This document shows positions 1,800-32,680 of a DNA stretch of 64,000 nt, piece after piece; positions within the stretch are counted from its first letter, which is position 1, and every line of letters starts with the position of its first letter. The position numbers and the translations under genes were made by a program. Under the pieces are notes generated by a model, which made no database searches, was not told where the DNA came from, and saw only the letters and a program-made list of their open reading frames with translations. Source of the DNA: Bradyrhizobium sp. CCH5-F6 (GTDB lineage: Bacteria; Pseudomonadota; Alphaproteobacteria; Rhizobiales; Xanthobacteraceae); NCBI RefSeq assembly GCF_001556045.1, contig NZ_LSIC01000073.1:62001-126000 (forward strand), given 5' to 3'.

Positions 1800-1891
1800 G
1801 CTTTGACCCATCAAGGCCATTTTCCCTTGAATGGCTGCCCGCGAAAGACTCTATCGACAACCGTTGTCACCATATTTTCCGAGGGCCTGTC

Positions 1892-2146
1892 TTAAAGGGG
1901 GCCAGCTGTCCGAACTCCACAAAGTTCAATATCACAGAACAGCAAGCTTGATGGACCAGGATCGACGACGTCTCCGATAACGCCACTACCGAAATAGACT
2001 TGCGGCTGCCGCCCGACGGCTTTCTTGCGGCCACGGTAGTAAACGAAGGGGATGCCCGGCTGTATGATTCTTCGATACTTTCTCGGAAACTGATAAGAGA
2101 CGCCCGTCTTGTCGGCGCACTTTGATCTTCGATTCCGTGGCTTCAT
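1892..2146 (-). pseudogene. Truncated ORF coupled to vsr, possible remnant of a restriction-related protein
   Basis: This 84-residue ORF starts with an ATG that overlaps the vsr stop codon (ATGA), so it looks translationally coupled to the methylase-vsr unit. The stretch PFVYYRGRKK...QPQVYFGSGVIGDVV resembles the N-terminal EVE/PUA-like modules of some HNH or McrA-type restriction proteins; this is a weak recollection, not a search result. Such proteins are normally several hundred residues long, and here the frame ends within about 90 residues, close to the point where composition returns to that of the host chromosome. The simplest reading is a gene cut at the island edge. It could instead be an intact small protein. 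Confidence 0.45.
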
Positions 2147-2601
2147 TTTGCGAAAGAACGAGCGGCATCTATCTGTCTCGCGCGAGTGCGGCTTGTAGTA
2201 AGAAATCTTTCAATCGATCGCTCAAGTCGAGCTGGCTTCTTGAGTTCGCACTCCCAAACGGTATGTACGCGCCAACCCAACCGACGCAGTGCGCTTTTGT
2301 TGCGGAGGTCTCGAGCTACGTTATGCTCGAACTTGAGCGTCCAAAAATCGATGCGGCTCTTGGGAGTTGAAGCTTTCTTGCAATTGTGATGGCGATGCCA
2401 AAAACAGCCGTGCACAAAAATGACTGCTCTCAACGAAGGAAAGACGATATCAGGCGTGCCCGGCAAGTCCCGGCGATGGAGGCGGAACCGAAAGCCGAGC
2501 CGATGTGCAATCCTTCTTACAGTTATCTCGGGCGATGTATCGCGTGACCGAACCCGCCTCATCAGAGCGGACCTTCGTTCAATCGATAATCGGTCTACCA
2601 T
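2143..2601 (-). CDS. vsr: Very short patch repair endonuclease Vsr
   Basis: Vsr nicks 5' of the T in T:G mismatches that arise from deamination of 5-methylcytosine, so it protects genomes carrying a C5 methylase. All hallmark residues of the E. coli enzyme are visible at the same or nearly the same positions: E25, the metal ligand D51 in GTPDIVF, H64 and H69 in HGCFWH, and zinc ligands C66, H71 and C74. The length of 152 residues is typical. It starts 4 bases after the methylase stop codon, so the two genes form one unit. The base composition is lower in GC than the flanking chromosome. Confidence 0.93.
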   Translation of the reverse strand: MVDRLSIERRSALMRRVRSRDTSPEITVRRIAHRLGFRFRLHRRDLPGTPDIVFPSLRAVIFVHGCFWHRHHNCKKASTPKSRIDFWTLKFEHNVARDLRNKSALRRLGWRVHTVWECELKKPARLERSIERFLTTSRTRARQIDAARSFAK

Positions 2602-2605
2602 CCAG

Positions 2606-3706
2606 TTATTCTGCCGCTTGACTCATTATCGGAACATCAAGTTTGGCGCGAATACGAGACAGCAATGCGGCGGCCAATATGGGGCTAACGCTGTTCCCGA
2701 TCATTCGAAAGCTGTGCCACACCGTGGGATGGAATCGAAATCCGTCCGGGAAGCCTTGAAGACGGGCCGCCTCCCGAACGGTGATCACCCTATGTTGCGA
2801 TGGATGGATTGGCCGAACGGCTTGGTAGGACCCGCGGTCGGCCCCAGTGCCCGCTCGCAATGTAGGGCACTGCCCCTTCCAAGAAAGCCGGACATGCTTT
2901 CCGACTTCGTCTTTGCCGCCCTGCTTTACAGACGCGAACCTTTTGGAAATCTCTGGACGGTGCGGTGTTTTCTTGTGACCGGTTACAATTTGCGTCCGAC
3001 CCCGCAAGCTCTGTGCGTATCGGGAGCGCTCACTGTCAGCACTCGACCGCCAAAGATCATAGCCGCCAGAATCGGTACCAATCTCAGTAAGGTCGGCGAG
3101 GTCGGATATCGCGTCTCTCACCGTGGCCGGTTGCGATGTGCCAACGAACATTGTCGCATCCATCGGCGCCATGCGATCGGAGTCGAATCCGTAAACAAAA
3201 AGCCGTGGACGTATTGTTGCCGCTCCAAAATCCGCGGGGCTTAGGAGCATCGGCCCAATGACCTTGTAAGTGCTCGGCAGCAATGCGATGCCGCAATCAA
3301 GAACATGCCTGTTATGTGCAAACCCCAGACCCCTAACATTCTCCATGAGGAAGAACTTTGGGCGTAAATCTCGAACAAGTCTGAAGAAGTCCGTTAGTAG
3401 ATCGCGTCGAGGATCGGCAGCATCCTGGCGTCCAATTGCACTAAAGCCCTGGCAGGGCGGTCCGCCAATGATCCCATCAATTGATCGGGGTATTGCCCGC
3501 CTGATCGTTGACGCGCTGGTGCTCGCAATGTCTGCAATTTGCAGCGGAGCAGACGAGAAGTTCCGCGTAAACGAATGAGTAAGGTTTCGATCTATGTCGA
3601 TAGAGAGTGCGGTCTCGAATCCGGCTCGGTGCGCTCCAAGCGTGAAGCCGCCGCAGCCACAGAAAAGGTCGAGCAGGATTGGGCGATCAGCAGCGGCTTT
3701 CGGCAT
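2606..3706 (-). CDS. dcm: DNA (cytosine-5) methyltransferase
   Basis: This enzyme transfers a methyl group from SAM to C5 of cytosine in a specific DNA site. Counting from the ATG at 3706, motif I is LLDLFCGCGGFTLG (11-24), motif IV is GGPPCQGFS with catalytic Cys85, motif VI is MENV (121-124), motif VIII is RPRLF (166-170), motif IX is REAARLQGFPDGF, and motif X is GNSVSP. The target-recognition region between VIII and IX is short. No good Shine-Dalgarno sequence precedes 3706. A TTG at 3778 in the same frame would add 24 residues and is the main alternative start. The gene is divergent from the GHKL ATPase gene and feeds directly into vsr. No cognate type II endonuclease is recognised beside it. 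Confidence 0.93.
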   Translation of the reverse strand: MPKAAADRPILLDLFCGCGGFTLGAHRAGFETALSIDIDRNLTHSFTRNFSSAPLQIADIASTSASTIRRAIPRSIDGIIGGPPCQGFSAIGRQDAADPRRDLLTDFFRLVRDLRPKFFLMENVRGLGFAHNRHVLDCGIALLPSTYKVIGPMLLSPADFGAATIRPRLFVYGFDSDRMAPMDATMFVGTSQPATVRDAISDLADLTEIGTDSGGYDLWRSSADSERSRYAQSLRGRTQIVTGHKKTPHRPEISKRFASVKQGGKDEVGKHVRLSWKGQCPTLRAGTGADRGSYQAVRPIHPSQHRVITVREAARLQGFPDGFRFHPTVWHSFRMIGNSVSPILAAALLSRIRAKLDVPIMSQAAE

Positions 3707-3861
3707 CAGACTAAGGTGTAACAGGTTTTGGTTAAAAAGTTCGATGCCGGGATTGGCTTTAACCTCTGGCTCGCGCAAGTTGTAGGCGACGATTTTAACG
3801 CAAAATACTAGCGGGCTCGGTTAATTGCAACCGACCTAGGGCTCGCGAGCGGGGGATAAAA
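3707..3861. promoter_or_regulatory. Divergent intergenic region between methylase and GHKL ATPase genes
   Basis: The space between the two divergent starts is only about 155 bases, or 83 if the methylase starts at the TTG at 3778. It must carry both promoters, so the two arms of the island are probably co-regulated. No convincing operator palindrome was seen. Confidence 0.4.
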
Positions 3862-5274
3862 ATGGCGAAGAAGGCGGTTCTGACCGGGACTAATCCTTCT
3901 CTGACGATGCGAATCAATAAGCGCTTCTTCGTGGAGATGCTTACCAGAGACATCGAACTCGAAGATGCAATCCTGGACTTACTCGACAATTGCCTCGACG
4001 GAATCATTCGCAGTTCGAAAAAATCGACAACGTCAGCCAAGGCTTTTCGGGGGTATTGGAGCAAGATCACCCTGTCCGCAGATCGATTTACGATCGAGGA
4101 CAACTGCGGCGGCATTCCCCAAAAGCTAATCGAACGGGCGTTTGGCATTGGACGAAACGTTGATCCGAACGAGCATTACAAGACCATAGGCATCTACGGC
4201 ATCGGTATGAAGAGGGCGATCTTCAAGATGGCGCTCGAAGCGTCCGTTGAATCGCACGGCGATTTTGGTTTCGAAGTCAGCATAAACGAGAAATGGCTTC
4301 GTAGCGAGGACCTGTGGCGGCTGGACTATAAGCGAAAGCGCCTTCCCTTTGAGCATGGTACGCGGATTACCGTTACGAAGCTGCGCCCGGAAATCGGGAA
4401 GATGTTTGATACGAAGTCGTTCGTGACGAGGCTAAACTCGTTCATCTCACAGCACTATGCCATTATACTCAACAAAGGCTTCCGAGTTGAGCTTAACGGT
4501 GTCGATGTGGAGCCTGCGCCGGTTGCCATTCTGTCTGCTTCTGCAGAAGAAATTGCGGCGGGTAACGCTGCGATGGCGCCTTACATGCTCAAGTTTGAAA
4601 CACCCACCGTGAAAGCGTCGCTATGGGTAGGCATGTATCGGACTCCTTCTGATTCTGAAGGTGACGAGGAAAGCGAAACGGAGCAGAGACAAACGCGAGA
4701 CAACTCGGGCTGGACGATTATCTGCAACGACAGGGCTATCGTTTCAAATGACACAACGATTCTGACTGGATGGGGTGAGGCAGGCGTTCCTCGATTTCAT
4801 CCCCAGTTCATCGGAATCCGGGGCATTCTTACGCTGGACTCGGATAAACCTCTCGATCTTCCGCTCACGACCACTAAGCGCGGCCTCGATGCATCGTCGA
4901 CTCTCTATCTGAATTTAAAGGAGTACATGCGGGAGGGGACTAAGCGCTTCACGAACTTCACCAACCATTGGAAAGCTGATCGCATTAAAGCAAAGAAGCT
5001 GTTCCAAGATGCGGAGCTCATGGAATTGCCCGCACTCAAGGCACTCCAGAGTAAAGTCACATTCGACGCGTTGCGTAAGCTTCACGGAGCGGAACGCTTT
5101 ACGCCCAATCTTCCGGCCCCAGAGCCAAGCCAGATGAAGCGAATAAGCTTTCTCAAAGATCAGTCAGATATCGCGCGCATTGGCAAAGCGCTCTTGGATG
5201 ATCCTACGGCGAAGCCATCGGACGTAGGTGTCGCGTGCTTTGATGATGTAATGAAGCGGATTTCAAAGAAATGA
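3862..5274 (+). CDS. GHKL (MutL/MORC-like) ATPase of the defence island
   Basis: This 470-residue protein has an N-terminal GHKL ATPase fold. The N box is ELEDAILDLLDNCLDG (about 32-47, with catalytic Glu and Asn43), the G1 box is IEDNCGGI (78-85), and the G2 lid motif is GIYGIGMKRA (110-119). The remaining 350 residues, including an acidic stretch near 270, have no recognised domain. GHKL ATPases of the MutL/MORC type have been linked to restriction-modification operons (Iyer, Abhiman and Aravind, 2008), where they are thought to act as ATP-gated clamps on DNA. No histidine-kinase phosphoacceptor domain is present. The stop codon overlaps the next gene's ATG (ATGA), so the two proteins are probably made together. 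Role in defence is inferred from context. Confidence 0.8.
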   Translation: MAKKAVLTGTNPSLTMRINKRFFVEMLTRDIELEDAILDLLDNCLDGIIRSSKKSTTSAKAFRGYWSKITLSADRFTIEDNCGGIPQKLIERAFGIGRNVDPNEHYKTIGIYGIGMKRAIFKMALEASVESHGDFGFEVSINEKWLRSEDLWRLDYKRKRLPFEHGTRITVTKLRPEIGKMFDTKSFVTRLNSFISQHYAIILNKGFRVELNGVDVEPAPVAILSASAEEIAAGNAAMAPYMLKFETPTVKASLWVGMYRTPSDSEGDEESETEQRQTRDNSGWTIICNDRAIVSNDTTILTGWGEAGVPRFHPQFIGIRGILTLDSDKPLDLPLTTTKRGLDASSTLYLNLKEYMREGTKRFTNFTNHWKADRIKAKKLFQDAELMELPALKALQSKVTFDALRKLHGAERFTPNLPAPEPSQMKRISFLKDQSDIARIGKALLDDPTAKPSDVGVACFDDVMKRISKK

Positions 5275-6317
5275 TTGACGCAACCGAGCTCACCCCGGCA
5301 GGAGCAGCGGGAGCATTCGGCGTAAATTACGCTCTGCGCCCGCACAAGTTCGTTGATCGACGGATTTTCGTGGAAGTGCTGTCTCGCTACGCCGCGTACA
5401 GATCCATTCAGGATTTTGTCTACGTGGGACTCGGCAGCTTCGCCATGGAAGATCACAAACTGATGAATGCGTCGTTTGGCATGGTGAAGTTAATCTCGCT
5501 TGAGATAGATGCGGACGTGTTGAATCGACAGAAGTTCAACTTACCGCTCTCCTGCATCGTACCTACGGCCTACTCGACGGAGGATTTCGTGTCGCAGAAG
5601 GCCGCAATCCTCAAGGCGGCCGGAGTAAGCGCAGATCACAACTCGGCGGTTTGGTTCGACATGACCGATGCCACGACATTGCGGGCTTGTCTGGATACGT
5701 TTGAAGGACTGCTTAGGGTGAGTGAGCCGGATGATGTTGTCCGGATAACTGTGGATGTAGACGAGAAGACATTAGCGAGAGTATCCAAAGAGGTCTCATT
5801 CGAGGAGACAACAGAGCTCCGATTTGAAGCGTTGCGGGAGATGTTGGGTGATCAACTCAAGCCTGGCGCGAAGGCCAAAGACCTCGGCGATAAGTTAGGT
5901 GTCGCTCGCTTGGTCGTCTATGCGTTCAATATGGCGGCAGAATCTGCGTTCAGCGCGGGCGGCCAGTTCGTATTCGAGCCGCTATCCATCACGACTTATG
6001 CCGATGGCCACCGGATGCTCAGCGTCACGGGTGTGGTCATACAACAAGAGAAGGTCAAGAAGTGTCGCGAGCAGATGGGACTGGACTCAGTTCCAGGAGC
6101 CGTCCGCAACTGGGATGAATTGGTCGACGTTGAGATTCCTCAGCTTACCATTTGGGAGAAGCTGACTCTCGACAGGGAAATTCATACGAAGAGTTCGGTA
6201 GACTTGGCTGCCATGATGAATTTCAAACTTCACGAAAGCATCCCGACGACGGCCCTAATTGATGGCTTCCGCAGCTTTCAAAGATTCTACCCAACATTCC
6301 GACACGTAATACTATGA
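5271..6317 (+). CDS. Putative SAM-methyltransferase-like protein, partner of the GHKL ATPase
   Basis: This 348-residue protein is of uncertain family. Residues 48-63 (DFVYVGLGSFAMED) look like motif I of a Rossmann-type methyltransferase, and LISLEID (74-80) gives the acidic end of the second strand. VWFDMTD further on could be the motif IV strand. No DPPY, NPPY or PC catalytic motif of DNA methylases is seen, so methylation of DNA cannot be claimed. Translation is coupled to the GHKL ATPase by a 4-base overlap. The stop lies 15 bases from the end of the convergent PLD-nuclease gene. It may modify a nucleotide, protein or other small target, or only use the fold as a sensor. Confidence 0.6.
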   Translation: MIDATELTPAGAAGAFGVNYALRPHKFVDRRIFVEVLSRYAAYRSIQDFVYVGLGSFAMEDHKLMNASFGMVKLISLEIDADVLNRQKFNLPLSCIVPTAYSTEDFVSQKAAILKAAGVSADHNSAVWFDMTDATTLRACLDTFEGLLRVSEPDDVVRITVDVDEKTLARVSKEVSFEETTELRFEALREMLGDQLKPGAKAKDLGDKLGVARLVVYAFNMAAESAFSAGGQFVFEPLSITTYADGHRMLSVTGVVIQQEKVKKCREQMGLDSVPGAVRNWDELVDVEIPQLTIWEKLTLDREIHTKSSVDLAAMMNFKLHESIPTTALIDGFRSFQRFYPTFRHVIL

Positions 6318-6332
6318 AGCGCAGCGGCTTTC

Positions 6333-7652
6333 CTATCTGCTTTCAAGGCTTAGGAAGCGACGGAGACCGTAAGTCCTTAGCCTCAGAACCAATCGCGATT
6401 CGAGCCCGTCACAAAATTCCTGCGCGTCAATACCTCGACTGTTTGATTTGTAGCGAAATGAGTCGGTCAAGGTCCGCCTTAATTGTGCAGACAGTCTGTT
6501 GGCGTTTGTAGATATGATCGACTCGAATTCTTTGGAGTTTCGGGAGATGCCGGTCTCCAGATGTTCAAGATCGAGTCCCTTCAGGGTGAAGCGCATAAAC
6601 AGCATGCATTGGTCGTTGTCGCGCGAAATGTGGAACTTGACATTCCAATCTTTGAGCGTCGCTAGTGATCGATTGAAGGTGATTTCTTCCACCTTCAAGA
6701 GGTGCCCTCCCAGACGCAAGCGTTCGCTTTGAGGTGTTAGATCCATACCAAATCGTGTAAGCCGCGTCTTATTCAGTGCGGGCCATCCGAGCTTTCCTGT
6801 CTCCGGTGCCACCAACAGGTATCGTTGCCGCTTCGTAAGCACCTCCGCCGCTCCATCAATTATCCACTGCGTGAGGTCTACGTTAGGCGAGGCAAGCAGT
6901 GTGTAATGGGAGTTCCAGGAGGACCACATGTCGCTGCCTAGATGCTGAAGGGTCAGAAACGCTCTGCCGCTCGCAGGCGCTGAACGAACAGCTGATCGCA
7001 GCGTCGAATATACGTTGGCTGTCTTTTCAAGGAGTGCCCGCCGCTCGCGCCGCTCCTTCTCTTCTTTCTCCCAACGAAGTCTCCGCGCTCTAAGCGCCTC
7101 TGCGGTGCGAACGGACGAGTCGACGTCACGGATGGCAGCCTGAAGTTCCTCGAACTTCGCTCGGAGCGGTTCAATCTGCTTTTCCATGTCATCGATCATC
7201 GAAAGGGTAATAGGATGCGAGGATTGCAACCATCGATCCAACTCCTTCCGCACCTCTGCCGCTCTGGCAGGTTCAACGATCAGTACGGAAGCTTCTCGGT
7301 TCTGAAGGCCGCCCTCAGTCAGATTTTGGCTTCCGATCGAGCAGAAGACTTCAGAAGAGACCACTTTGGCATGCAAATTATCGGAATGGCTCAGTTGAAA
7401 GCCAGCCAGGACGATTCGGCGAAGCGTGGCCAAGGAGGATGCGCCGGAGGCAAAGTTCTCTGCCCGGAACGTCGTGAGAATTTTCACGGTTGAGGGCGCG
7501 ACGCCCGTTAAAAGGTCCTCCGCGATGGTCGAAGTCAGGTACGGCGATGCCACAATCAAATTATGTTCAGGCGAACACCGCAATTGCTCTCCTACCGCTT
7601 CCAGCATTGATCGGAGGAGGGGGCGGACTTCTGGGGACGGATCGATTTCCAT
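6333..7652 (-). CDS. Phospholipase D-fold nuclease-like protein with coiled coil
   Basis: This 439-residue protein has one PLD-type catalytic half-site near the N terminus: H94-x-K96-x4-E101 followed by GSQN (107-110). The usual acidic residue of HxKx4D is Glu here. A single motif means an active enzyme would be a homodimer, as in BfiI or Nuc nucleases. Residues about 155-215 are rich in Glu, Arg and Leu and predict a long coiled coil. The C-terminal 220 residues are unfamiliar. It is the only obvious nuclease candidate, apart from Vsr, in the island. It is transcribed towards the GHKL-methyltransferase pair and has its own upstream region. Nuclease activity is inferred. Confidence 0.7.
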   Translation of the reverse strand: MEIDPSPEVRPLLRSMLEAVGEQLRCSPEHNLIVASPYLTSTIAEDLLTGVAPSTVKILTTFRAENFASGASSLATLRRIVLAGFQLSHSDNLHAKVVSSEVFCSIGSQNLTEGGLQNREASVLIVEPARAAEVRKELDRWLQSSHPITLSMIDDMEKQIEPLRAKFEELQAAIRDVDSSVRTAEALRARRLRWEKEEKERRERRALLEKTANVYSTLRSAVRSAPASGRAFLTLQHLGSDMWSSWNSHYTLLASPNVDLTQWIIDGAAEVLTKRQRYLLVAPETGKLGWPALNKTRLTRFGMDLTPQSERLRLGGHLLKVEEITFNRSLATLKDWNVKFHISRDNDQCMLFMRFTLKGLDLEHLETGISRNSKEFESIISTNANRLSAQLRRTLTDSFRYKSNSRGIDAQEFCDGLESRLVLRLRTYGLRRFLSLESR

Positions 7653-7923
7653 GGCGAGCTTCTTAAAAGGAGTGCGCTGAAGTCACGTTTACCCAAGGTG
7701 GCGTCTCCGGCGGCAGCCTTCATCGAGGCTCCGATGGCAGAGGGAACGCGTCACGAGGCTGGTAAACAATGATGAAGAATAGTAGAAAAACGACAGTAAA
7801 ATCAATGACCTTTGCCGGCGCTACAGCAATCCTTTCCTGAGCACCGGTTTATCCAAGTCCTGCCTTAGTCTAGTCCGTCGTCACATCCTCCACGCCGAGT
7901 TCAGGTCGCATAACCTTCCCGCC
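7653..7923. other. Right edge of the defence island, no gene seen
   Basis: About 270 bases between the PLD-like gene and the GH5 gene. No ORF, tRNA, terminator or clear repeat was found. Base composition shifts from mixed to the GC-rich host style across it, so the island boundary probably lies here. No direct repeat matching the left edge was recognised by eye. Confidence 0.5.
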
Positions 7924-8967
7924 TCAACGCACCGCCGGCATCAGCGCCCGCAAAATGTCCGGCTTCCAGGCTTGGCGCTCGCTGTCGAAGGCCGCGAAAT
8001 CGTGGTCGAACTGCCAGTAGGCCCATGCCCAGCCGAGCCGCTCCGCGCTGCGCGCCACGAACGACAGATATCTCGTCCGTGCTTCGGCTGGCGCGGCTTC
8101 GTACACGCCGAACTCGCCGACATAGATCGGGCGCTTCTCCCTTTCGGACCAGGACCGGATCTTCTCGAAATCGGCGCGAGCCTTGCTCTCGTCCTCCGCA
8201 GTGCCCCAATCAAGCGGACCGATTCGCGAGAACGTCGGCGACCACGGCGCGCCCTGATGCGTGAAGCGTATCGGCGCGTAATAGTGAAACGTGACGATGA
8301 GGTTTCGGTCGTCCGACGGCAGGACCAGATCGTCGACAGGCATTTCATCGACGTTGAGAACCGCGGCAATGACCGTCCGCCTTGGGTTGGTGGCGCGGAT
8401 GATGCCGAGACACTCGTTCAGAAGGGCGTTCCAGCTTGCGGACGTCATCTGCCCGCCCGGCTCGTTGAGGACCTCGAAGACGAGCTTCGGATATTTTCCG
8501 GCGTAGCGCGCGGCGATCTGCGTCCAGAACGCTTTCAGCTTCTCGGTGCACTCGGAGACGTCGCGCTGGCAGACATGGGTATCGTGCTCGTCCAGAATGG
8601 GGATGAGCTTTCGGGCGAGCACCTCCTCGATGACGGCATCAAGCCGCCTCAAGACGGTTTCTTCCAGCAGATTTCCCTCGCCCATGAACTTGAAGCCGAA
8701 GAAATTGATGCGGACGTGCGAGAACCCGGCCTTCCTGATCGCAGTGAGGTTATCCAGCCGGAATGGCGCGTTCCGGCCTCCCTCCCAGATGCCGTCGTAG
8801 CCAAGGATGTTGATGCCGCGCCCCAATGCCACGGGAGCGGGCGCGGTGCCCTGCCCGGCCGCGTCGGCCCGGGAGCAGATTGCGAGGACGGATATTGCCG
8901 AGGCGATAGCGAAGGTCACCCACCGGCGGGCGGCGTAGACGGTGCGCATCCTTGTTTTCCCCATCAT
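7924..8967 (-). CDS. Secreted glycoside hydrolase family 5 (cellulase-like)
   Basis: A retaining GH5-type glycosidase of 347 residues. A signal peptide is present: positively charged start, hydrophobic stretch TFAIASAISVLAI, then SRADA as the likely cleavage region. Catalytic acid/base is Glu169 in VLNEPGG and the nucleophile is Glu285 in YVGEFG; HYYAP is also typical. The chosen ATG overlaps the TGA of the upstream O-antigen ligase-like gene (ATGATG), giving translational coupling; Met at 8949 is an alternative. It probably trims or remodels the polysaccharide that the neighbouring polymerase makes. The substrate (cellulose or another beta-glucan) is not decided by sequence. Confidence 0.88.
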   Translation of the reverse strand: MMGKTRMRTVYAARRWVTFAIASAISVLAICSRADAAGQGTAPAPVALGRGINILGYDGIWEGGRNAPFRLDNLTAIRKAGFSHVRINFFGFKFMGEGNLLEETVLRRLDAVIEEVLARKLIPILDEHDTHVCQRDVSECTEKLKAFWTQIAARYAGKYPKLVFEVLNEPGGQMTSASWNALLNECLGIIRATNPRRTVIAAVLNVDEMPVDDLVLPSDDRNLIVTFHYYAPIRFTHQGAPWSPTFSRIGPLDWGTAEDESKARADFEKIRSWSEREKRPIYVGEFGVYEAAPAEARTRYLSFVARSAERLGWAWAYWQFDHDFAAFDSERQAWKPDILRALMPAVR

Positions 8968-10256
8968 TGCCGCAGCTGTTGCTGAGGCACCGGCCTGCAC
9001 ACCGCGAAGAAGAAGGCGACGAGAAGCACCGAGGTGAACATCGTCGAGCGAAGGAACATCGTCTCCGTGAAGTTGGTCTGAAAGCTCAGGACGACGAAGC
9101 CGATGATGAGAGCGCAGTGGCCGCGATCGATCGACCGGGTCGCGATCAAATACAGGACCTTGTCCGAGAACAGGAAAACGCTCGCGACGAACAGCACGTA
9201 TCCCAGAAATCCCGTTTCGATCATCACCGCGATGTAGCCGCTATGATAATTGTCGAGCACCCAGCCATGGTTCTGGTTGAAATAGTCGTAGATCGAAGGA
9301 CGCGTCCAGAATCCGTTGATGCCGAAGCCCAGGAGCGGCGCGTCGTTGAAATGGCTGATCGCATACTGCCAGATGAAGGTCCGCTCCGTCAGATTGATCG
9401 TGGTTTCGCCGAGATGGATGGAATCGTAACCGGTCACATAGAAATACAGGATCAGCAGCGCGGCCAGGATGCACATGATGAATGGCAGCACCGCATAGAC
9501 TTTCATGCAGCGGATCGACCACATCGAGGTGAACAGCAGCGCGCCCGCGGCGACGGCAACGGCACCGGCGCCGCGCGACTCCGAAGCGACGACGCAGGTC
9601 GATGCCAGAAGGAACATCGAGAGGAAGGCAATCCATCCCTGCCCCGTCATCTTCCGATAGCAGGCAAAGAACATCAGATAGGCGCTGATGAAGCCGAGCG
9701 TCTGCTTCGATTCGTATATTCCTTGCCACTGGCCATTGTGCATCCAGCTCTGGTCCACGCCGATCTCGGGCACGAAGACGGCGCAGAATGCCGAGGCGGC
9801 AACCAGGATGAAGAGTCCCAGCGCCGTCGATCCGACGATCTCGTCGATGTCGATGCGCGTGATGAGGCAGTACGCACCGAAGGTCGTCACCACGAGTGCG
9901 GCGCTCTTCATGATCGCCGCGGCGGCGAGGCCGGCCCAGAGAACGGAAATGGCGGCGAAAGCGTAGAAGGCGACCAGCGCGATCAGATCGGGATTGGGCT
10001 CCACCCGCACGCGCGGGCGTACGAAGGCACTGGCGTAGATCAGGATGCCCCACATCAGGAGCGCAACGGCCTGTTGCACATAGCTCCACTCCGCACGAAG
10101 CAGCGCGGGATTGAAGACGCCCATCGACGCGACGACGTTGACGGTGATCGAGACACGGATCACCCCTCTGGCAAGCTTCTCCACGCCGACGCCGGGCGCT
10201 TTCGAGATCGCGCCGTCGCCTGCCGTGGAATCCGCCGCGGGGTGTAGGCTGGTCAT
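8964..10256 (-). CDS. O-antigen ligase/polymerase family membrane protein (Wzy_C-type)
   Basis: This 430-residue integral membrane protein has about ten to twelve hydrophobic segments. It carries the large periplasmic loop typical of WaaL/Wzy/ExoQ-like proteins, with the conserved region GFGINGFW...NHGWVLDNYHSGYI. Such proteins polymerise or ligate lipid-linked sugar repeats on the periplasmic side of the inner membrane. The ATG at 10256 follows GGAAGG at a suitable spacing; the GTG at 10277 is less likely. The overlap with a secreted GH5 gene suggests an exopolysaccharide role rather than classical O-antigen ligation, but this is inference. Confidence 0.82.
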   Translation of the reverse strand: MTSLHPAADSTAGDGAISKAPGVGVEKLARGVIRVSITVNVVASMGVFNPALLRAEWSYVQQAVALLMWGILIYASAFVRPRVRVEPNPDLIALVAFYAFAAISVLWAGLAAAAIMKSAALVVTTFGAYCLITRIDIDEIVGSTALGLFILVAASAFCAVFVPEIGVDQSWMHNGQWQGIYESKQTLGFISAYLMFFACYRKMTGQGWIAFLSMFLLASTCVVASESRGAGAVAVAAGALLFTSMWSIRCMKVYAVLPFIMCILAALLILYFYVTGYDSIHLGETTINLTERTFIWQYAISHFNDAPLLGFGINGFWTRPSIYDYFNQNHGWVLDNYHSGYIAVMIETGFLGYVLFVASVFLFSDKVLYLIATRSIDRGHCALIIGFVVLSFQTNFTETMFLRSTMFTSVLLVAFFFAVCRPVPQQQLRQ

Positions 10257-10379
10257 GAGCCGACCTTCCCGAGGCACGGTTAATAATTGCTTACCGCGCG
10301 GCGCGACCGCCTCCGCGGCCGGCGTTTCCTCGGGCGTTCGGTTTCAGCCGGGGCGGCGAACCGTGTCCCGGAGTGGGCC

Positions 10380-30275: not shown

Positions 30276-32680
30276 AATTCACCCTCTCCTGGCTGAAGGA
30301 TCATCTCGAGACCGACGAGCCCTTGGAAAAACTCGCCGAGAAGCTCACCATGATCGGACTCGAGGTCGAGAACATCGAGGACAAGGCGAAGGCGCTGAAG
30401 CCGTTCACCATTGCGAAGGTGATCTCGGCCGAGCAGCATCCGAATGCGGATCGCTTGCGCGTCTGCATGGTCGACACCGGCGATGGCGGCGCGCCGGTGC
30501 AGGTGGTGTGCGGCGCGCCGAATGCGCGTGCCGGCCTCGTCAGCGTGTTCTCCCCGCCCGGCACCTACATTCCCGGCAAGGATATCACGCTCGGTGTCGG
30601 CACCATCCGCGGCGTCGAGAGCCGCGGCATGCTGTGCTCGGCGGCGGAGCTGCAGATCTCGAACGACCATAACGGCATCATGGAATTGCCAGCGGATGCG
30701 CCGGTTGGCTCTGCCTACGCCGAATGGGCAGGGCTCGGCGATCCCGTGGTCGAGATTAACCTGACGCCGAACCGGCAGGACTGCACCGGCGTGCACGGCA
30801 TCGCGCGCGACCTTGCCGCCGCCGACATGGGCAAGTTCAAGGACCCGACCATCAAGCCGATCAAGGGCGAATTCCCGTGTCCGGTGAAGGTGACGGTCGA
30901 GGACGCCGCGCTGTGCCCGGGCTTTGCGCTCCGCCTCGTGCGCGGCGTCAAGAACGGACCGTCGCCGGAATGGCTGCAGAAGCGGCTGACCGCGATCGGT
31001 CTGCGCCCGATCAACGCGCTGGTCGACATCACCAACTTCATGACCTTCGACCGCGCGCGGCCGCTGCACGTGTTCGACGCGAAGAAGGTCAAGGGCAGCC
31101 TCGTGGTGCGCCGGGCCCGCGACGGCGAGAGCCTGCTCGCACTCGACGGCCGCACCTACAAGCTCGATCCCTCGATCTGCGTGATCGCGGATGAGAACGG
31201 CGTCGAATCGCTCGCCGGAATCATGGGCGGCGAGGCCTCTGGCTGCGACGAGAACACCACCGACGTGCTGATCGAATCGGCGCTCTGGAACGAGATCAAC
31301 ATCGCCCAGACCGGCCGCAAGCTCGGGATCAATTCAGATGCGCGCTACCGCTTCGAGCGCGGCGTCGATCCCGCCTTCATGGTGCCGGGGCTGGAGCTCG
31401 CGACCAAGCTGGTCATGGAGATGTGCGGGGGCACGCCATCCGAGACCGTCGTGGTCGGCAAGGCCTTTGGCGACGACCGCCTGATCGAATTCCCCATCAC
31501 CGAGGTCAAGCGGCTCTCCGGCATCGACGTGCCGCAAACCGAGATGAAGCGCATCCTGACCCATCTCGGCTTCATGATGGCCGGCCCGGGTCCGGTCGTG
31601 AAGGTGGCGGTGCCGTCCTGGCGCACCGACGTGCACGGCAAGGCCGACATCGTCGAGGAGATCGTGCGCATCTTCGGCGTCGACAAGGTGCCGGAGACGC
31701 CGTTCGAGCGCGGCGAGGACGCGCGCAAACCGGTGCTCACCCCGCTCCAGCTCCGCACCCGCCGCGCGCGGCGCGCGCTGGCGAGCCGCGGCATGGTCGA
31801 GGCCGTGACGTGGTCGTTCATCGCCAAGCCTGCGGCGGAATTGTTCGGCGGCGGCCAGCGCGAGCTGGAAGTGGCCAACCCGATCGCGTCGGACTTGTCC
31901 GACATGCGCCCGACCCTGCTCGCGGGCCTGACCGCGGCCGCGCAGGCCAATGCCGATCGCGGCTTCGGCGATGTCGCGCTGTTCGAGGTCGGTCAGATCT
32001 TCAGGGGCGATCGCCCGCAGGACCAGTTCATGGCGGCGAGCGGCGTACGCCGCGGCTTTGCGTCCTCTGAAGGTCTCGGACGGCACTGGACCGGGTCGAC
32101 GCAGGCTGACGCCTTCGATGCCAAGGCCGACGCGCTGGCGGTGCTGGCAGCCAGCGGTGCGCCGATGCAGGCGCTGCAGATCGTCGCCGGCGGACCTGGA
32201 TGGCTGCATCCGGGGCGCTCCGGCACGATCCAGATCGGTCCGCAGAACGTGCTCGGCTATTTCGGCGAGATGCATCCGCGCGCGCTCGAGGCGCTCGGCG
32301 CCGACGGTCCGCTGGTGGTGTTCGAGGTGATCCTCGACCGCATCCCGGAGGCGAAGAAGAAGCCGACCCGCGCCAAGCCGCTGATTGAGCTCTCGGCCTT
32401 CCAGCCGGTGTCGCGCGACTTCGCCTTCATCGTCGACCGCGCCGTGAAGGCCGGCGATATCGTCCGTGCCGCGCAAGGCGTCGACAAGAAGCTGATCACC
32501 GGCGTGAACGTATTCGACGTCTACGAGGGCAAGGGCATCGACGACGGCAAGAAGTCGATCGCCATCGCAGTGACGATCCAGCCGCGCGAGAAGACGCTCA
32601 CCGACCAGGAGATCGAGGCGGTCGGAGCCAAGATCGTGGCGGAAGTCACGAAGAAGACCGGCGGTACCCTGAGAGCATGA
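30272..32680 (+). CDS. pheT: Phenylalanyl-tRNA synthetase beta subunit
   Basis: The 802-residue beta subunit of PheRS: N-terminal tRNA-binding (EMAP-like) domain ([21 protein letters not shown]), B3/B4 editing domain ([22 protein letters not shown]), B5 domain, synthetase-like core ([18 protein letters not shown]) and C-terminal FDX-ACB anticodon-binding domain ([15 protein letters not shown]). The start overlaps the DUF559 stop by 4 bases. Its last codons lie in an intergenic repeat. Confidence 0.98.

Follow-up and report, generated by a model that had tools for sequence, protein, structure and literature searches.

A conserved trio of a MORC-type ATPase, a PF20553 protein and a C5 DNA methylase in a low-GC island of Bradyrhizobium: a candidate mobile restriction-like module

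Restriction–modification (R-M) operons with a MORC-type ATPase were described by Iyer et al. in 2008, and the features that these MORC and paraMORC operons share with the locus described here are a GHKL and S5 ATPase with the MORC motif, a C5 DNA methylase, Vsr and sometimes an HNH protein (PMC2292703). The same authors proposed that the eukaryotic MORCs came from bacterial restriction systems. Topological entrapment of DNA is known from human MORC2 and from MORC-1 of C. elegans (PMC11185635), and MORC ATPases take part in plant immunity (PMC5651269). Here, we describe a locus of Bradyrhizobium sp. CCH5-F6 in which a GHKL ATPase gene, predicted to encode a prokaryotic MORC, is overlapped by a gene of the family PF20553 and stands beside a C5 methylase gene. 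It lies in a stretch of 64,000 nucleotides (contig NZ_LSIC01000073.1, positions 62,001 to 126,000 of the forward strand), which is called the window throughout and whose own numbering is used for all coordinates.

The conserved unit is a trio: GHKL (MORC) ATPase, PF20553 protein and C5 DNA methylase, with Vsr as a frequent companion. In the window, the three core genes are the C5 cytosine DNA methyltransferase (2606..3778, minus strand; PF00145, DNA_methylase, E 1.2e-57), which is called from a TTG start although its true start may be further in, the ATPase (3862..5274, plus strand; HATPase_c_3, PF13589, 31.1 bits for a cut-off of 25) and its methyltransferase-fold partner of 348 amino acids (5271..6317, plus strand; Methyltransf_35, PF20553, E 2.5e-60). 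A 4-nt overlap joins the last two. To follow these genes elsewhere, a GHKL alignment was scanned against one genome per species, which gave 332 relatives; the best 80 were examined over up to 10 kb on each side, together with 67 GHKL relatives in viral contigs, many of them near-identical prophages. Open reading frame (ORF) calls were heuristic, and the PF20553 counting profile included the copies of loci L001 and L002, both independently confirmed by Pfam. Within 5 kb of the GHKL gene, the genome loci hold PF20553 in 77 of 80 cases, a C5 methylase in 68, both in 67 and Vsr in 34, and the viral loci hold PF20553 in 62 of 67, a methylase in 66 and both in 61. The genome count of 67 trios refers to thinned gene calls and becomes 68 when all ORFs are used. 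Across the 80 genome loci, the density of methylase matches is 17.5 times higher in the 5 kb around the GHKL gene than beyond (72 in 678 kb versus 3 in 496 kb), so the co-occurrence is above chance. The trio set comprises 127 of 150 loci, 99 of which remain after thinning at 90% GHKL identity. In these 99, which were selected for closeness, the gap between the MORC and PF20553 genes always falls between −60 and +20 bp, and it is −4 in 56.

The record titles of the GHKL relatives in genomes include proteobacteria, Bacillota, cyanobacteria, planctomycetes, Chloroflexi, acidobacteria, Nitrospirales, Verrucomicrobia and several candidate phyla. The association was also recovered in the reverse direction: starting from PF20553, whole genomes of three groups were positive in 5 of 385, 3 of 369 and 3 of 299 cases, each count including the chosen centre genome. 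Without the three centres there are eight genomes, one of which (L033, Stenotrophomonas) is apparently already in the GHKL-found set. In the seven with upstream sequence, the GHKL gene adjoins PF20553 every time (one of these pairs has both genes broken) and the methylase is present too in six; the contig of the eighth starts inside the PF20553 gene. A viral scan anchored on PF20553 returned ten loci, every one on an already found contig.

Some loci depart from the standard arrangement. L144–L147 and L149 have a methylase beside a longer GHKL protein (573, 581 and 586 amino acids in L144, L145 and L149) and no PF20553, which suggests a simplified or fused variant. Two GHKL genes each are present in L004, L015, L030, L056, L061, L063, L067 and L069, some with two facing modules. 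For five of the loci that lack a C5 enzyme (L009, L010, L013, L022 and L038), a different DNA methylase in its place was considered and rejected, as the large genes adjoining the pair there encode kinase, antiporter, WD40 or glycosidase proteins.

The assignment of the ATPase relies on the S5-domain motif GhXhhpXXRhl, which unites prokaryotic and eukaryotic MORCs and excludes other GHKL proteins (PMC2292703). In the window protein the motif reads GWTIICNDRAI and is located at residue 283; on this ground the protein is classed as a putative prokaryotic MORC. The motif is present in 96 of the 99 non-redundant trio proteins and in 154 of 158 GHKL matches, the four without it being single copies in L042, L057, L061 and L068. 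Among controls, which included no other GHKL families, it was found in 6 of 599 unclassified ORFs longer than 350 amino acids, 4 of 149 methylases and none of 140 PF20553 proteins. Ten GHKL motif positions were compared, and nine are invariant in all 99 trio proteins (D39, N43, D80, G110, G113, G115 and K339 among them), while T167 is found in 83. The equivalent of position 39, always aspartate here, is a glutamate in MORC, MutL and Hsp90. When the GHKL profile was compared with solved structures, only MORC3 was reached, and weakly (E 0.053).

Part of what a sequence-only reading of this DNA had put forward is borne out by these data. It had described a low-GC, defence-like island of five complete genes and one fragment, which is found at 1892–7652; its gene families were guessed rightly, and the identification of the 348-residue protein as PF20553 is the one addition. 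The joint conservation of methylase, GHKL and 348-residue proteins, often with Vsr, and the MORC kind of the ATPase likewise stand. So does its failure to recognize a standard defence system, as no PADLOC-DB 2.0.0 family matches the GHKL or the PF20553 protein of the window at E 1.

The trio is also found in phages. The P2-like prophages of E. coli EC77 and elppa5 have it between their portal and replication endonuclease genes, an interval in which nothing else is annotated (the replication gene of elppa5 being marked incomplete), and Pfam confirms all three families in EC77. Used as a DNA query, the P2-type trio is covered to at least 80% in 47 of 5,426 E. coli genomes, and all three genes are annotated in the best 20 listed. 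A further 206 genomes match it partly; 24 of 30 sampled down the ranking match the methylase alone. Hotspots of anti-phage genes, perhaps at another site than that of the trio, have been reported in P2-like phages (PMC9122126); the words methyltransferase and GHKL do not occur in the main text of that article. The filamentous phage PfAC20 has GHKL, PF20553 and methylase genes in a row, although its published description credits it with the methylase alone, as part of an incomplete system (PMC11878078). In both E. coli prophage records, the RefSeq labels are 'ATP-binding protein' for the GHKL and 'O-methyltransferase' for the PF20553 product. Recognition of the trio would correct the PfAC20 entry as well as the RefSeq names of the MORC and PF20553 genes.

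Other genes accompany the trio less regularly. The accessory Vsr mismatch endonuclease of the window (2143..2601, minus strand; TIGR00632, 146.1 bits for a cut-off of 97.85) would repair T:G mismatches arising from deaminated 5-methylcytosine. Four loci without Vsr (L016, L037, L043 and L049) have related glycosylase-like proteins near the trio, three at about 1.2 kb and one at 5.1 kb from the GHKL gene; the L049 protein was scanned and matched HhH-GPD. Such a gene fits an alternative repair of deaminated 5-methylcytosine. One blastp cluster of neighbour proteins occurs in six genome loci (L003, L015, L018, L033, L042 and L075), 0.05 to 1.7 kb from GHKL, and its members in L018, L033 and L075 carry Pfam HNH_2. 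In Tagaea (L003), the intact cluster gene directly follows vsr. The window has an ORF of 84 amino acids (1892..2146, minus strand) which matches a profile of the six neighbour proteins, that of Tagaea included, at E 9.9e-12, and shares 60% identity with the Tagaea member in an alignment of 75 columns. Stretches of homology over 2168–1861 lie in shifted frames, and Pfam reports nothing in the fragment. Judged by this homology, the ORF, for which the sequence-only reading had offered no explanation, is what is left of the beginning of a gene homologous to that of Tagaea and related to HNH-nuclease genes; the later part is gone. The Tagaea protein aligns to the HNH_2 protein of L075 as far as the start of that domain (E 1e-9), and on visual inspection the final 70 residues of the Tagaea protein resemble an HNH domain. 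The HNH_2 neighbours at L033:9002–9934 and L075:12401–13306 match the HNH part of the NCBI model for a phosphorothioated-DNA restriction endonuclease (92.9 and 68.5 bits, cut-off 180).

The reading that we favour, and consider moderately probable from the gene content, is that the window trio is a mobile restriction-like immune module, restricting or trapping DNA that lacks its methyl mark. The methylase would mark the cell's own DNA, and MORC and the PF20553 protein would form one complex acting on DNA without this mark. As MORC2 and MORC-1 suggest by analogy, the MORC dimer could close on unmarked DNA in an ATP-driven manner, clamping it and stopping its use; the clamped DNA may then be passed to a nuclease, or be silenced without one. 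In the window, the formerly linked HNH-type gene is broken, and the PLD nuclease-like gene on the other flank (6333..7652, minus strand) may substitute for it. Several results weigh against this proposal. No nuclease was recognized in the trio core, and of the five accessory families sought around the trios (Vsr, HNH type, glycosylase, PLD and DrmD), not one is present in 29 of 68 genome and 54 of 61 viral trios. That the broken gene was of the HNH type is judged from related proteins, since its intact counterpart in Tagaea gives no match in Pfam, PADLOC or NCBIfam. Twelve of the 80 genome loci (8 cyanobacterial by title, some at contig ends) lack any methylase or any PF20553; 9 genomes checked among them have C5 methylases elsewhere, and so do 10 of 14 controls. 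Finally, PF20553 does not co-vary with the variable region of the methylase after correction for MORC and for the core of the methylase (partial −0.08, reached by 486 of 500 permutations). A PF20553 specificity subunit tied to that region was therefore rejected, and a recognition role for the protein is unsupported. MORC itself weakly co-varies with the region (0.196, reached by none of 500 permutations).

The module might also work without a nuclease of its own. By analogy with the eukaryotic proteins, the MORC–PF20553 complex may close round unmarked foreign DNA and trap or compact it, HNH-type and PLD proteins being optional and exchangeable; we regard such nuclease-free immunity as possible, though doubtful. 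If true, the nuclease-free trio would be an ancestral form of MORC silencing. The lack of PF20553 co-variation with methylase specificity suits a different role for the partner, namely that of a second modification enzyme for DNA or RNA under MORC control, with protection by modification and not by attack. Pfam labels the family a 'putative O-methyltransferase', and its fold matches include Trm1 and other nucleic-acid methyltransferases. However, the usual catalytic motif of a DNA amino- or C5-methylase was not seen in the protein by eye, and the gene keeps closer to MORC than to the methylase (77 versus 68 of 80 genome loci), so that we judge this role quite unlikely; the 50 VIA rows for PF20553 contain no DNA C5 methylase, which excludes nothing. 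Nor does the trio have to serve immunity: the methylase might shield a mobile element against restriction by other systems, with MORC silencing transcription, as eukaryotic MORCs silence genes (PMC11185635), and the many viral contigs and prophages with a trio agree with this. Yet the trio also occurs in genomes of many phyla outside recognized phages, the MORC–PF20553 pair is found within a DISARM-annotated operon, and the anti-phage hotspots of P2-like phages, although perhaps at another site, point towards defence. We consider such a modification and gene-silencing role very unlikely.

The place of the PLD gene separates the trio from a larger, five-gene system in which the GHKL protein would switch on the PLD protein as a dedicated cutting enzyme. 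The latter (PLDc_2, PF13091, 26.7 bits, just below the cut-off of 27) has one HKD-like motif (H94-x-K96 with GSQN at 107–110), a coiled coil and a beta-rich end, and its PLD domain has the fold of the restriction enzymes SauUSI and BfiI. In addition, the closest relatives of the GHKL (96% identity), PF20553 (93%) and PLD (82%) proteins come with the same longest contig, of 15,303 nt, and are hence probably on one contig, which would place PLD beside the trio in one very close relative as well as in the window. Against this stands the absence of PLD within 5 kb of GHKL in all 80 genome and all 67 viral loci, as judged by a profile built from 22 sequences that remote members may escape. Elsewhere, PLD homologues stand apart from any trio, as far as the retrieved stretches reach. 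Among 385 whole genomes of the class of Tagaea, PLD is found in 1, with no trio within 16 kb, and two PLD loci in viral contigs lie beside terminase and portal genes, again with no trio. In L195:7588–9725, next to type I R-M genes, a PLD homologue and an intact HNH_2 gene share 4 nt, which lends the cutting role some credit, although the pair is perhaps a separate two-nuclease unit. We find a dedicated PLD nuclease unlikely. The co-occurrence that the sequence-only reading had proposed holds for the trio and fails for PLD, its presumed nuclease, and the interpretation as a whole is partly supported. With the HNH-type gene broken and a PLD gene on the opposite flank, the local nuclease may instead have been exchanged; taken with the PLD–HNH_2 neighbours of L195, this makes the nucleases around the trio look exchangeable. 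We consider it extremely improbable that the trio is what was left of a DISARM operon after loss of the helicases. The Microvirga terrae plasmid NZ_CP102847.1 (L001) does carry a DISARM-annotated operon with an MmeI-like gene, in the order Dcm-Vsr-DrmD-MmeI-MORC-PF20553-DrmA-DrmB-DrmC, so that the MORC–PF20553 pair sits between DrmD and DrmA in a possible hybrid defence operon, and the window PLD protein weakly resembles PADLOC DrmC (E 1.5e-10, residues 31–160). However, helicase-free trios are the rule: a DrmD gene lies within 5 kb at a single locus among the 80 from genomes and at a single one among the 67 viral loci, and DrmA and DrmB are at none, the profiles of these two being of one sequence each, which remote ones could escape.

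In its genomic context, the GC content of the island is 0.49–0.58 per window of measurement; outside, it is mostly 0.60–0.69, with some lower values (0.55 at 9001–9500). The island is flanked by an ORF of 90 amino acids (1461–1733) and one of 358 (7924–9000), presumably cellulase-like. An empty-site comparison with a genome carrying a 75% identical ligase was abandoned, as the only DNA in common was 7918–10288, and no insertion boundary was obtained. This region is a two-gene block with 77% DNA similarity to another genome, ending abruptly on both sides of the compared stretch. Farther along, ARAGORN calls a tRNA-Asp of 94 nt at 30766–30859, which Rfam does not report at gathering score and which is possibly false or odd.

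Among the described systems closest to the locus are the MORC operons of Iyer et al., in which an SFII (superfamily II) helicase is found in about 70% of neighbourhoods and a minority have methylases or restriction enzymes with no helicase (PMC2292703). Here, the one helicase family profiled in some depth, DrmD (two seeds), is near 1 of 80 genome loci. The term O-methyl is absent from the available text of that article (PMC2292703), which therefore does not present the PF20553 partner by this name. With DISARM the window shares a C5 methylase and a Vsr neighbour, and its PLD protein is weakly like DrmC, but its first 16 kb have no DrmA, DrmB or DrmD match, with the DrmA and DrmB profiles of one L001 sequence each. 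The BbrUII/HgiDII enzymes (NF050001), whose cognate methylases are C5 enzymes (PMC5867850), match weakly over the GHKL region (19.3 bits in the window, 34.5 bits in L137); these scores are far under the cut-off of 550 bits, and a model of 659 positions contrasts with a GHKL protein of 470 amino acids plus partner. Relatives weakly match the MZA ATPase MzaB (25.3 bits in L137, 14.6 bits in E. coli L150), and the Pf-phage GHKL protein does so in PADLOC (E 0.0011); the window protein has no match to MzaB (NF041932, cut-off 850 bits) at E 1. In PADLOC, the GHKL and PF20553 proteins of Tagaea and E. coli L150 and the Pf-phage PF20553 protein match no family; in the window, PADLOC families match the methylase and Vsr, as well as the PLD protein at a weak level (DrmC, DpdK). 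The likeness to SauUSI and BfiI covers only about the first 160 residues of the PLD protein, the rest being hardly tested, and from type II R-M the window has the DNA methylase, with no endonuclease recognized in the core. A literature search outside subscription journals gave no paper for PF20553 or Methyltransf_35. MORC proteins in R-M operons have been known since 2008, but the resources searched do not name the near-constant PF20553 partner, the trio or its site in E. coli P2-like prophages. The trio may represent compact immunity of a kind related to animal and plant MORC proteins, and its three-gene form in E. coli P2-like prophages makes the ancestral MORC function directly testable in a laboratory strain.

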